From positions 6,944,001 to 7,008,000 of the forward strand of contig CP018627.1 in the NCBI GenBank assembly GCA_002021875.1: a stretch of DNA of 64,000 nucleotides, written 5' to 3'. The notes beneath the pieces were generated by a model. The model did not search any database, was not told the origin of the DNA, and saw only the letters and a program-made list of their open reading frames with translations. This DNA is from Streptomyces hygroscopicus. Lineage in GTDB: Bacteria; Actinomycetota; Actinomycetes; Streptomycetales; Streptomycetaceae. The position numbers were made by a program, and so were the translations under genes. Below, piece by piece: positions 30,946-49,023 of the stretch; within the stretch, counting starts at the first letter, position 1, and the number at the start of each line of letters is the position of its first letter.

Positions 30946-33900
30946 TCAGTCGAGGCGGGTGAACGTCTGTGTCATCGTCTCATCGCTGTAATCGTCCGGG
31001 TCGTCATACTCGACACGCAGCTTGTCATGTCCGGAAGAGGTGAACGTCAGTGACGTGCCGGGCCCACAGAGATTCTTAGGGGTACCCCCCGTGAACTTCG
31101 AGGGGCTGAGGACGAGGCCCTTCTCCACCGAGGCCAGGACCCGGTCACCCTCGCAGTGGTACTTCTTACTGTCCGCGACCTCCTGGGCCACCGCGGTGCC
31201 GATCGCGCCCTGCTTGATGGTGATTTTCAGCGTGGCGTCCTGCTTCCCGAACGCCTCCTTCGCCAGCCAAGTGCCCTCGTACGAGGAGGGGATCGGCTTG
31301 CCGCCGCTCTTCGAGGGGCGCAGCGTCGCCTCGTAGGAGCCGTCCGTGGTGCTCCAGGCGAGGGTGCCGTCGTTGCCTATCCGCAGGGTCTGCTCGCCGA
31401 CCGTGCTGCAACTGTCCTCGGGAATGCTGGTGGTGACCTCGTCGTCCTCGATGAGCAGCAGGCTGTCCGCCGACTTGAGCTTGGCCGAGTCCTGGCAGAA
31501 CGAGTCCGAGTCGGAGGTCAGGGTCTCGGCGACGAACGCGCCGACCGGCCCCTGGGAGAGGACGATCCGGCGGATCTTGCCGGTGGAAGAGCCGCTCTCC
31601 TTGATCTCGCCCTCCCAGGCGCCCAGATACTCGGTGGGCACATCGCCGGTCGTGTCCAGCTTGGTCGCGGACGGATCGGGCGCGCCCGAACCACCGGTGG
31701 GCTCCTTGGAGTTGGCGCCATCCGGGCTGGCGGGCGGGGTGTGGGTCATCTTGTCGTAGTCGGTCTTGGCCTTGTCGCCCTTGTCGTCGTTTCCCTTGAC
31801 CACGGCGAGGGCGGCGACCCCGGCTATGAGCAGCGTGGCGACGGCGGCCGAGACGACGATGAGCGTCTTACGGCGGCGCTTGGGCTGTGGCGGCTGCGGC
31901 GAGCCGGACCCGGGGCCACCGGGGCCACCGGGCCCGCCCGGTCCACCTGGTGCCGCCGGTGCGTTTGGTCCGCTCGGCCCGCCGAAGCCGACGGAGGGCG
32001 TGGCGGCGGCTGCCTGGCCTGGGGACGGGGCGGGCCCGAACGAGGTGACGGCGGGCGGCCCGAAGGCGTGCGGCGGCGTCTGCGGCTCGCCGTCCGCGCC
32101 GGGCTGCGACGGGGTGGCGTGCGGCGGGTAGCCGTACGCCGGGGCGGCGTAGGGGGCGGCGGCACCGGGCGAGTTGGGCGCGGCGGGAGCCGCTCCGGCG
32201 TGAGGTGGGGTGGGGGTGCCGGGAGCGCCATGGGCGGGTGCGGCGTGTGGCGGTGTGGGGCTTCCGGGTGTGGCGTGGGGCGGCACGCCCTGCGGCGGTG
32301 TGGCGCTCGCAGGTGTGCCCTGCGCGCCGCTTGCCTGTGGCGCCGCGTACGGCGCCGCGCTCTGTGACCCGTCGCCGCCGGGTGAGTTGGGCGACGCGGC
32401 AGCCGCGCCGCCCGTTCCGGCATGCGGCGGTGTGGGGTGTCCGGGTGTGCCCTGGCCTTCGCCCGCCTGTGGTCCGGCGGAGGAGGGCGCGCCCTTCCGC
32501 GGCCCGCCCGGCGTCGCGGCAGAGGCGGAGCCCTGGCTTCCACCAGCCGGGGACGCGTCCGCCTGCCTTGGGTCTGCCTGCCCTGCGCCTGCTTGCCCTG
32601 CGCCTGCTTGCCCTGCGCCTGCTTGCCCTGCGCCTGCCTGCGCCGCGCCTGCCTGGGGCGCGGCGGACGGTCGGCCGGGTGTTCCGGGTGTTCCGGCGGT
32701 TGCAGGTGTTCCGGATGCGGCGGCGTGCGGGGCGTCGTGGCTCGGCGCGGCGCCCTGCGGCCCGGCGGCTGCCCCGCCCGGCGCTGCGGGCGCGGCGGCG
32801 GGGTGGCCCGGGGTGTCCTGGCCCGCGGCGGCCTGCTGCGGCGCGCCCTGCCCTGAACCGCCGTGGCCCGAACCGGCCTGCGCGCCGTCGGTCGACGGCG
32901 CGTCGGCCGACGGCGCGGCAGCCTGCGGCGCGGCAGCCTGCGGCGCGGCGGCCTGCGGTCCGCCAGCCTGCGGCCCGGCGGCCGGGTCCGGGGTGTCCTG
33001 GTCCCCGCCCGCCCGCGGTGTGGCGCTGTACGGCGCGGCAGGGTGCGCGCCGGGCGTCGCGGGTCCGGCGGCCTGTCCCCCGCCCTCCTGCGACGCGGCG
33101 GCGTACGGTCCGGCGGCGTGTCCGCCCGGCTGGGCCGTGCCGCCCTGTCCCGCGCCCGCCGAAGGAGGCGCCGACGGAGCCGGGGGGAGCGCCGCGCCCG
33201 CCTGGGGCGCGGCCGAGGGGAGCGGCGGTGTGGTGGGTGGCGGGGGCGTGGGGGGCTCCGCCGGAGCCAGCGGGTACGACGTGGCCGACGGCGGCGCGGA
33301 GGGCGGCGGCGGGGCGGCAGGCCCTGCCGCCCCGGCCATGGACGCGGCGGGTCCCGCCGCCCCGGCCATCGGCGGTACGGCCGGCCGCGCAGGCATACCC
33401 GGCACGGCGGGGACCCCCGGCCCCGCGGGCGTCTCCACCTCCAGGAGCTGCACCGCATGCCGTCCGAGCTGGGCGACGAGCCCGCCCGGCAGCCACGGTT
33501 CGCCGTCGTCGTCCGCACCGGCCGTACGGTCCAGCAGCGCCTCCAGCGAGGGCCGGTCGTCCGGGGCCTTCTTCAGGCAGTCGGTGACGAGTTCGCGCAG
33601 CCCCTCCGGCAGCCCCTCCAGGTCCGCTTCCTCCTGCGCGATGCGGTACATGACCGCGTGCACCCCGCTGTTGGCCGTGCCGAACGGCTGACGGCCGGTC
33701 GCCGCGTAGGCGAGCACCGAGCCGAGGCAGAAGATATCGCTGGCGGGGGTGACCCGCTCGCCGCGCACCTGCTCGGGCGACATGAAACCGGGCGACCCGA
33801 CGACGGCGCCGCTGCGCGTGAGGATGCCGTCGGTGACGGTCTCCAGCGCCCGCGCGATACCGAAGTCGATGACGCGCGGACCGTCGATGGTGACCAGGAC

Positions 33901-46088: not shown

Positions 46089-46095
46089 TGCACGG

Positions 46096-46168
46096 AGCGG
46101 ACGACGAGGCTCGAACTCGCGACCTCAACCTTGGCAAGGTTGCGCTCTACCAACTGAGCTACGTCCGC
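46096..46168 (-). tRNA. tRNA-Gly(GCC)
   Basis: 73 bases. Acceptor stem GCGGACG/CGTCCGC, canonical D-loop AGTTGGTA, anticodon loop TTGCCAA (anticodon GCC), T-loop TTCGAGC, discriminator T, CCA not encoded. Reads GGC and GGT codons. Nearly identical to the second copy at 47111. Confidence 0.97.
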
Positions 46169-47103: not shown

Positions 47104-47110
47104 GATCTGG

Positions 47111-47183
47111 AGCGGACGACGAGATTCGAACTCGCGACCCTCACCTTGGCAAGGTGATGCTCTACCAACTGAGCCACGTCCGC
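47111..47183 (-). tRNA. tRNA-Gly(GCC)
   Basis: 73 bases. Acceptor GCGGACG/CGTCCGC, D-loop AGTTGGTA, anticodon loop TTGCCAA (GCC), T-loop TTCGAAT, discriminator T. Standard elongator, second GCC copy in 1 kb. Confidence 0.97.
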
Positions 47184-47264
47184 ATGCCTCCGACCAGCTT
47201 TCACCGATCGGCGCGTGCATCACTCTACCTGATCCTCTTCGGCAAGAGGGCGATAGACGATGAG

Positions 47265-47336
47265 AGCGGGTGACAGGGATCGCACACTGCGCCTCCCCCT
47301 TGGAAAGGGGGCGCTCTACTACTGAGCTACACCCGC
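47265..47336 (-). tRNA. Atypical tRNA-Gly(UCC), probably not used in translation
   Basis: 72 bases. Acceptor GCGGGTG/CACCCGC, D-stem GCTC/GAGC, anticodon stem CCCCC/GGGGG and loop TTTCCAA (anticodon TCC) are perfect. But the 7-base D-loop AGTAGTA lacks the G18-G19 pair. The T-arm has GTGC where all elongators have GTTC, and its stem forms at best four pairs (GCAG/CTGT, one G-U). Loss of both GG and T55-C56 contacts removes the elbow interaction. The same pair of changes marks the staphylococcal tRNA-Gly species that supply glycine to peptidoglycan bridges and bind EF-Tu poorly. It is charged like Gly-tRNA (anticodon and acceptor intact). Confidence 0.8.
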
Positions 47337-47440
47337 ATGGTGTCTTCCTCGGGCCTTCGGCCTTTCGGCCTCGCCCCTCGGCGTGCTCCAGACTTTAGCG
47401 GATCACCCGGGGTGGTGTGCAACTCGGCTGAACGGGTCAC

Positions 47441-47758
47441 TCAGGCCGACTCGTTGAAGGCTTCGTAGACCTTCTTGGGGATCCGGCCGCGCGGGGGCAC
47501 CTCCATGCCGTTCGACCTGGCCCAGGCGCGCACCGCGGCCGGGTCCGGGGCGACATCGGTGCGGCGGTACGTCTTGCCCGAGCGGGCCCGCTTGCGACCG
47601 GCCTCCACGTACGGCGCGAGGGCGTCGCGCAGTTTCGACGCATTGGCAGAGTTGAGGTCGATCTCGTACAACCTGCCGTCGAGTCCGAACGTGACCGTCT
47701 CTTCCGCTTGGCCGCCCTCGAGGTCGTCGGAGAGCGTGACTACTACGCGCTGCGCCAC
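47441..47758 (-). CDS. lsrL: Lsr2-family nucleoid protein (LsrL type)
   Basis: 105 residues, GTG start with AAAGGA upstream. N-terminal dimerisation domain 'QRVVVTLSDDLEGGQAEETVTFGLDGRLYEIDLNSANASKLRDALAPYVEAGRK' (2-56); C-terminal DNA-binding domain with 'AVRAWARSNGMEVPPRGRIPKKVYEAF', where the RGR loop enters the minor groove of AT-rich DNA. Lsr2 silences foreign and AT-rich genes. Streptomycetes have two paralogues, Lsr2 and LsrL; the place beside purSQL is, from memory, that of LsrL in S. coelicolor. Divergent from purS with a 303-base, unusually AT-rich gap. Confidence 0.92.
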   Translation of the reverse strand: MAQRVVVTLSDDLEGGQAEETVTFGLDGRLYEIDLNSANASKLRDALAPYVEAGRKRARSGKTYRRTDVAPDPAAVRAWARSNGMEVPPRGRIPKKVYEAFNESA

Positions 47759-48061: not shown

Positions 48062-48346
48062 GTGGCACGCGTCGTAGTCGACGTCATGCTCAAGCCGGAG
48101 ATCCTCGACCCCCAGGGCCAGGCGGTGCAGCGAGCGCTGCCCCGCCTCGGTTTCGAGGGGATCGCCGATGTCCGTCAGGGCAAGCGCTTTGAACTCGAGG
48201 TGGAGGGCCCGGTCGACGATGCCGCCCTCGCCCGTATCCATGAGATCGCCGAGACCTTCCTGGCGAACACCGTGATCGAGGACTTTTCCGTGAAGGTCGA
48301 GGTCGGCGAGGGTGCCGACGCCACCGCCGTGAAGGCCGAGTCGTGA
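48062..48346 (+). CDS. purS: FGAM synthase subunit PurS
   Basis: 94 residues from GTG 48062 ('[31 protein letters not shown]'), chosen because GGGAG at 48052-48056 spaces well; GTG 48056 lies within it. PurS is the small bridging subunit of the three-part FGAM synthase: as a dimer it links PurL to PurQ and lets ammonia pass. Conserved '[17 protein letters not shown]' is visible. Its stop overlaps the purQ start by four bases. Confidence 0.97.
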
Positions 48347-49019
48347 CCGCACGTATCGGAGTCATCACTTTCCCCGGCACGCTCGACGACCGCGACACCC
48401 AGCGCGCGGTCCGCACCGCCGGTCTCGAAGCCGTACCGCTGTGGCACCGCGACAAGGGCCTCAAGCAGGTCGACGCGGTGATCCTGCCGGGCGGCTTCTC
48501 CTATGGCGACTATCTGCGCGCCGGAGCGATCTCCCGGTTCTCTCCGGTAATGGAGTCGGTGATCGATCAGGCGAAGGCCGGTATGCCGGTGCTTGGCATC
48601 TGCAATGGCTTCCAGGTTCTCACCGAGACCCATCTCCTCCCCGGTGCGATGCTGCGGAACAACCATCTGCACTTCATCTGCCGCGATCAGAAGTTGCGAG
48701 TGGAAAACGCGGAGACCGCCTGGACGCGCTCATACGAGCAGGGTCAGGAGATCAACATCCCGCTGAAGAACATCGACGGACGCTATGTCGCCGATGAGCG
48801 TGTGCTCGATGAACTCGAGGCCGAGGGACGCGTCGTCTTCCGCTATGAGGAGCTCAACCCCAACGGCTCGCTCCGCGACATCGCCGGTATCTCCAATGCG
48901 GCGGGCAATGTCGTCGGCCTCATGCCCCACCCCGAGCACGCCGTCGAACCGCTGATCGGCACCGGTCGCACCGACGGTCTCGGATTCTTCACCTCGATCC
49001 TCAAGAGGCTGGTCAGCGC

Positions 49020-49023
<4 letters not shown>
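48343..49023 (+). CDS. purQ: FGAM synthase glutaminase subunit PurQ
   Basis: 226 residues. Class I glutamine amidotransferase giving ammonia to PurL. Nucleophile Cys87 in '[10 protein letters not shown]', oxyanion strand '[18 protein letters not shown]' (46-63), catalytic His and Glu in '[10 protein letters not shown]' (about 195-204). GTG start overlaps purS (GTGA) and the stop overlaps purL (ATGA), so the three proteins are made in a coupled ratio. Confidence 0.98.

Follow-up and report, generated by a model that had tools for sequence, protein, structure and literature searches.

A second, bulged tRNA-Gly(UCC) in Streptomyces and its possible role in cell wall synthesis

Streptomyces genomes contain a second tRNA-Gly(UCC) which departs from the ordinary one at the elbow and in the T-stem. 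It was found in the window, a 64,000-nucleotide stretch of Streptomyces hygroscopicus DNA (contig CP018627.1), and in every Streptomyces genome searched. On balance, this bulged tRNA is probably a glycyl-tRNA which is withheld from EF-Tu and made available to FemX; charging, EF-Tu binding and use by FemX are the parts of this reading that we infer.

Structure and setting of the gene

The bulged tRNA-Gly(UCC) is encoded on the minus strand at 47265..47336, with its 5' end at 47336 and the discriminator U73 at 47265. ARAGORN (47264-47336) and the Rfam tRNA family agree on this call, which is also that of an earlier, sequence-only reading; the RF00005 covariance score is 54.9 bits (E 4.5e-9), above the curated cut-off of 29. 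The first half of the sequence is GCGGGTG TA GCTC AGTAGTA GAGC G CCCCC TTTCCAA, and the second half is GGGGG AGGC GCAG-T-G TGCGATC CCTGT CACCCGC T. There are no mismatches in the acceptor, D and anticodon stems; these perfect stems, the D-loop AGTAGTA (47317..47323) and the GTGC of the T-arm had all been described correctly. The anticodon is at 47302..47304 (ARAGORN). The T-arm reads GCAG-U-G / UGCGAUC / CCUGU, with the 5' strand of the stem at 47285..47290 and the loop at 47278..47284 (G55 is 47283). Five pairs can be formed, G49-U65, C50-G64, A51-U63 (47288 with 47275), G52-C62 and G53-C61, with one U (47286) bulged between 52 and 53. The stem had been called weak. It does depart from a normal stem, but it is five pairs with one bulged U and A51-U63, not merely weak; it looks weak because the pairing was read without permitting a bulge.

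The genome to which the window belongs (one contig, 12.0 Mb) also contains an ordinary tRNA-Gly(UCC) at G000:C1:5131689-5131759 (L008); the bulged gene is thus not its only UCC glycine tRNA. The two share the acceptor stem, the anticodon and the glycine identity elements. The ordinary tRNA differs in its D-loop, AATGGTA with G18-G19, in its T-loop, UUCGAUU, and in its unbulged T-stem, GCGGG/CCCGU (T-arm GCGGG-TTCGATT-CCCGT). Aligned by eye with the ordinary tRNA, the bulged one has A for G at position 18 (47320) and G for U at position 55, and position 19 (47319) is G in both. Of the G18-G19 that its D-loop was said to lack, G18 is indeed replaced but G19 is kept. The lowest-energy fold of the bare bulged transcript is not a cloverleaf; the same is true of the ordinary tRNA, so folding does not discriminate between them. 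The bacterial glycine identity elements are G1-C72, C2-G71, U73, C35 and C36, and in Thermus also C50-G64, G10 and U16, according to the accessible part of PMC9976931; all of the elements named there are present in the window's tRNA.

An ordinary tRNA-Gly(GCC) lies directly downstream (47108..47183, minus strand) and another is found at 46094..46168 (minus strand). Both are called by ARAGORN and Rfam, and both are within 1.3 kb, as had been noted. Next upstream in the conserved neighbourhood is a 105-aa ORF (47441..47758, minus strand) with no NCBIfam match, which we take to be Lsr2-like. The other conserved neighbours, purS (48062..48346) and purQ (48343..49023), are on the plus strand; purQ serves as the synteny anchor. 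The bulged tRNA is at most 1.5 kb from purQ in 20 of 29 purQ-anchored Streptomycetaceae loci, and in those 20 a tRNA-Gly(GCC) adjoins it wherever the contig extends far enough. In G543 it is about 7 kb from purQ on the same contig. The eight purQ loci of g147 and g150 contain two GCC tRNAs and no bulged tRNA. The gene neighbourhood gives no link between the bulged tRNA and wall genes. Tandem arrays of the bulged tRNA occur in some Streptomycetaceae (L072, L080, L082, L293, L244 and others); among 192 loci with the tRNA, nine have two copies, six have three and one has four (overlapping loci counted apart).

By motif count, a -10-like TAAAGT (47392..47397) and a -35-like TTGCAC (47417..47422) are found upstream on the minus strand, separated by a spacer of 19 nt. 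Of 150 distinct 120-mers taken from upstream of the tRNA, 137 contain the -10-like GCTANNGT (mean in shuffles 0.75), mostly 48-50 nt 5' of the tRNA, and 93 contain TTGSRY-N17-20-TARDGT (mean in shuffles 0.0); the promoter-like motif was derived from the very upstream sequences in which it was counted. A generic sigma-70 scan of the window gave no hit.

ARAGORN also calls a 99-nt tRNA-Gly(tcc) in the window at 32462-32560 (plus strand); this is below the Rfam cut-off and is probably a false call. Elsewhere in the genome, five tRNA genes alternate between Gln(CTG) and Glu(CTC) within 0.5 kb (G000:C1:8528352-8528830, L047; 55-59 bits). Two further tRNA matches, G000:C1:2864440-2864501 (34.9 bits) and 7015657-7015718 (30.3 bits), are not called as tRNAs by ARAGORN.

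Conservation and distribution

The bulged tRNA was found in 150/150 Streptomyces genomes, the window's included, in a search with a 73-nt query (best E <= 5.7e-17); the odd loops are thus not specific to this strain. Identity ranges from 86 to 100% among the best matches listed. The 25 distinct sequences taken from loci of the genus all have AGTAG[TC]A, GTGC and the bulge, and the bulged base is either U or C. In these 25 sequences both sides have changed in 5 of 21 pairs and 100% of cells are paired; there are 26 double-changed cells compared with 7.8 in shuffles, a number reached by 0 of 500 shuffles. The anticodon stem and loop, including U33, UCC and A37, have been kept through compensatory changes. 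The five pairs of the T-stem are invariant in the genus set, where covariation neither supports nor contradicts the bulged stem. A covariance model made from the genus sequences gives the window's tRNA 105.5 bits, the normal UCC tRNA 69.6 and the CCC tRNA 67.5.

Among 394 genomes sampled across the class, all 40 Streptomyces score at least 96.8 bits with the covariance model and the other 354, none of which belongs to Streptomycetaceae, score at most 75.2 bits. Forty of the best-scoring matches outside Streptomyces were inspected and all are ordinary tRNAs. Within Streptomycetaceae the bulged tRNA is present in 90 of 121 genomes, scoring at least 87.6 bits. The genomes without it are all 27 of g150, all three of g147, and G560 of g152. 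The first of these groups is Kitasatospora, since K. purpeofusca is nested within it in the tree (support 97); g139 is Streptacidiphilus. G560 is not counted as a loss and is taken as an assembly gap, because purQ is also missing from that assembly. As to single or shared loss, the grouping of g147 with Kitasatospora has a support of 98 in a tree with one g150 genome (G559) misplaced, and of only 37 in the rooted tree with a long-branch MAG. Among 80 named purQ loci, 32 have the bulged tRNA: 30 in Streptomyces, one in 'Actinobacteria bacterium OK074' and one in Streptacidiphilus. It is absent within 3 kb at two Kitasatospora-clade and 46 other named purQ loci. Searches of plasmids and phages gave one and two records respectively, at an identity of 77-78%.

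A second, dispersed tRNA-Gly(UCC)-like RNA was seen with a relaxed class pattern in 20 of the 40 Streptomyces, at 1-5 copies per genome. There are 37 Streptomyces matches, one of which is unlike the rest; one of the 354 other genomes has a match, which is chance-like. The copy in the window's genome is at G000:C1:11482079-11482148 (L061, L101:10000-10070) and scores 36.9 bits. The 29 Streptomyces loci inspected (L439-L468 without L459) have unrelated genes around them but share one layout: a TATNNT stretch resembling a promoter, then a leader and the 71-nt element, which a hairpin follows immediately. This RNA has G55 and a GTGC T-loop, yet it has G18-G19; its anticodon loop is CTTCCTG or CTTCCCG. 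There is little covariation (both sides have changed in a single pair, and 33 of 500 shuffles are equally good), and Rfam recognises the family merely as a low-scoring tRNA. An explanation through neighbouring genes was rejected, no neighbour family being present in more than five of its loci.

Coupled positions and the FemX profile

The changes at positions 18 and 55 occur together. Of 88 distinct tRNA-Gly(UCC) with any letter allowed at 18, 19 and 55 (counted as sequences, not as independent events), 59 are A18/G55, 29 are G18/U55 and none is mixed; G19 is present in all 88. A narrower pattern gives 61 A18/G55, 26 G18/U55 and none mixed among 87. C50-G64 and A51-U63 are invariant in the 61 bulged sequences. 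The latter pair is found in none of 25 ordinary UCC sequences, which have G-C or C-G at 51-63 in 25/25. Position 49 is G in 56 of the bulged sequences, as in the window's tRNA, and A in the other five. The position of the bulge is alike in all but one of the 61; in g146 (L170) it is shifted by one place (ACA-U-GG). In g138 and g141 (L237-L240) this tRNA combines the bulge and A51-U63 with G18 and U55. In a tree rooted with Nocardioides these two branch first, with a support of only 59; if that order is correct, the bulge would predate the 18/55 swap.

A comparable tRNA is found in Terrabacter sp. Ter38, which is unrelated to Streptomycetaceae at the family level. Its second UCC tRNA (L369:1501-1572; G655:C43:398609-398680) has AGTAGCA, GTGC, A18/G55 and A51-U63 and no bulge; elsewhere the same genome encodes a normal UCC tRNA, and its FemAB match is strong. 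The 18/55 change thus appears to have occurred at least twice, within Streptomycetaceae and in Terrabacter. The class-wide pattern with CCGCT at the acceptor end is unable to catch the Terrabacter type. The relaxed pattern, which still demands unbulged spacing, A at 21 and C at 25, found no Terrabacter-like tRNA outside Streptomyces in the class sample, the single match among the 354 genomes (G282) being chance-like. The type is rare or unsampled, and is represented by one named genome. Intrasporangium, of the same family as Terrabacter, has a triglycine bridge according to the available portions of PMC3035309 and PMC6113628.

The FemX that the sequence-only reading presumed is present in the genome. 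There is one FemAB protein (L069:1480-2598), and its closest PDB match is the S. aureus lipid II:glycine glycyltransferase (E 1.5e-30). Directly 3' of its gene is an alanine-racemase-like ORF (L069:2665-3696), which is under curated cut-offs. FemAB is encoded in 120 of 121 Streptomycetaceae genomes, including all of g150, all of g147 and G560; G555 is the only family genome in which it was not found, and this genome carries the bulged tRNA. Of the 80 named genomes 37 were profiled, and FemAB is strong (90 bits or more) in 17, weaker in five and without a match in 15. Strong matches are found in Streptomyces, Streptacidiphilus, Kitasatospora, Nocardioides, Aeromicrobium, Terrabacter, a Nocardioidaceae MAG, a Catenulispora MAG and two other MAGs, and weaker ones in Georgenia, Arthrobacter and Catenuloplanes; the genomes with no match include Nonomuraea, Actinomadura, Microbispora and Planotetraspora. 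In 13 genomes that have FemAB but lack the bulged tRNA, 28 Gly tRNAs were inspected (30 of the 50 matches were used, and for four genomes these include no UCC tRNA); 27 are ordinary and one, that of Terrabacter, is odd. Nocardioides and Aeromicrobium have FemAB and no such tRNA among the Gly tRNAs inspected. K. viridifaciens, the genome of which is itself outside the searched set, makes UDP-MurNAc-pentapeptide with DAP-bound Gly, as stated in the accessible text of PMC8092295. FemX occurs without the bulged tRNA in Kitasatospora, g147, Nocardioides and Aeromicrobium, so FemX cannot depend on this tRNA, which is not strictly required; its distribution follows only some of the bacteria that make Gly bridges.

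Possible functions and known systems

The bulged tRNA would be charged by the ordinary glycyl-tRNA synthetase. It would then be a poor partner for EF-Tu through A51-U63, the bulged pyrimidine and the elbow pair A18-G55, which replaces G18-psi55. This would leave a reserve of glycyl-tRNA outside translation for a FemX-type lipid II:glycine transferase, which would make the interpeptide glycine of the wall from it. The pairs 49-65, 50-64 and 51-63 weigh most for EF-Tu, according to the available part of PMC8219837. Given A51-U63, the loss at 18, the bulge, the identity elements and the FemAB gene, a charged tRNA which is averse to EF-Tu and usable by FemX is the simplest reading; it joins three steps that we infer, namely charging, weak EF-Tu binding and FemX use. 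The retention of the EF-Tu pair G49-U65 in 56 of 61 bulged sequences counts against avoidance of EF-Tu. The gene may encode a donor dedicated to FemX, as the sequence-only reading proposed; the FemX lineages without it point to no strict requirement for one.

The tRNA could instead be a specialised second UCC isoacceptor which takes part in translation, decoding GGA or shifting frame under particular conditions, with no role in the wall. The altered elbow and the bulge would then tune decoding or turnover. The location beside an ordinary GCC gene, in an array of tRNA-Gly genes, fits such a role, as does the compensatory upkeep of the anticodon arm with U33, UCC and A37, for which a pure FemX donor would have no use beyond charging. 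However, the genome already has a normal UCC tRNA, and A51-U63 with the bulge in 61/61 sequences is an unlikely state for glycine when ordinary UCC tRNAs have G-C or C-G in 25/25; we consider translation by such an isoacceptor unlikely. It also seems improbable that the bulged tRNA serves outside translation in a way unconnected with FemX, whether as a glycine donor for another FemAB or GNAT transferase or as a tRNA-like regulator such as a stress RNA. Several lineages do have FemX without the bulged tRNA, and the accessible parts of two papers describe Gly-tRNA-dependent GNAT-fold enzymes in Streptomyces, DhpK and Orf11 (PMC12945691), and a pseudo-tRNA that lies within a regulatory RNA of Bacillus cereus (PMC3399842). 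Against this, the bulged tRNA is near-universal in Streptomyces, unlike antibiotic pathways, and its glycine identity elements are intact; FemAB is the sole partner profiled. A decaying gene or an annotation artefact is very hard to credit and was rejected. One base has been lost near the anticodon stem in the relative G602, and some copies are missed by ARAGORN, but presence in 150/150 Streptomyces with up to 100% identity and in 90/121 family genomes, fully paired cells with compensatory changes, and purQ synteny in 20/29 loci refute decay for the family as a whole.

If the bulged tRNA is a glycyl-tRNA kept for FemX, a broader proposal can be made, which is possible but distinctly more doubtful. 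The bulge and the swap of A18-G55 for G18-psi55 could be a separately evolved removal of glycyl-tRNA from translation for the wall, which arose in Streptomycetaceae and was dropped in the Kitasatospora clade, with its meso- as well as LL-DAP wall. The elbow swap and A51-U63 would have re-arisen in Terrabacter, and the 18/55 code might mark wall-dedicated glycine tRNAs in unrelated bacteria. No dedicated Streptomyces tRNA-Gly was found in open-literature titles and abstract openings; subscription papers were mostly beyond this scope, so novelty is unproven.

To our knowledge, S. aureus is the only bacterium for which the sharing of glycyl-tRNA between the ribosome and the wall is known, and there only in outline. 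A conserved tRNA of distinct structure in Streptomyces, the principal genus of antibiotic producers, would supply a second system; Kitasatospora would offer a natural loss and Terrabacter what seems to be a separate analogue. One could then measure directly how EF-Tu responds to a bulge in the T-stem and to the elbow pair 18/55.

Giannouli is said to have described, in 2009, non-proteinogenic tRNA-Gly isoacceptors for pentaglycine synthesis in S. aureus. The cell-wall tRNA-Gly of this species has a GUGC T-loop, as the window's tRNA does. Three wall-linked tRNA-Gly species have A49-U65 for G49-U65, A51-U63 for G51-C63 and UU or CU for GG at 18-19, in the portions of PMC4052509 and PMC9976931 available; the isoacceptors are also covered in PMC4810233, likewise available in part. 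The likeness to staphylococcal tRNAs claimed from the sequence holds for A51-U63 and for the change at 18, and in both organisms a normal tRNA-Gly is accompanied by an extra one and the cell has a glycyl transferase of the FemX type. It does not hold throughout: both 18 and 19 are changed in S. aureus, whereas the window's tRNA keeps G19, and the A49-U65 of S. aureus is mostly G49-U65 in Streptomyces, including the window's tRNA. The T-stem bulge is an addition on the Streptomyces side, outside the S. aureus set reported in those portions. The tRNA-Other of Bacillus cereus, a pseudo-tRNA, likewise has the shape of a tRNA, stands outside translation and affects the cell wall, but according to the accessible part of PMC3399842 it belongs to a longer regulatory RNA next to a genomic island and has no role in translation; the bulged tRNA, in contrast, has intact glycine identity elements and is vertically conserved.
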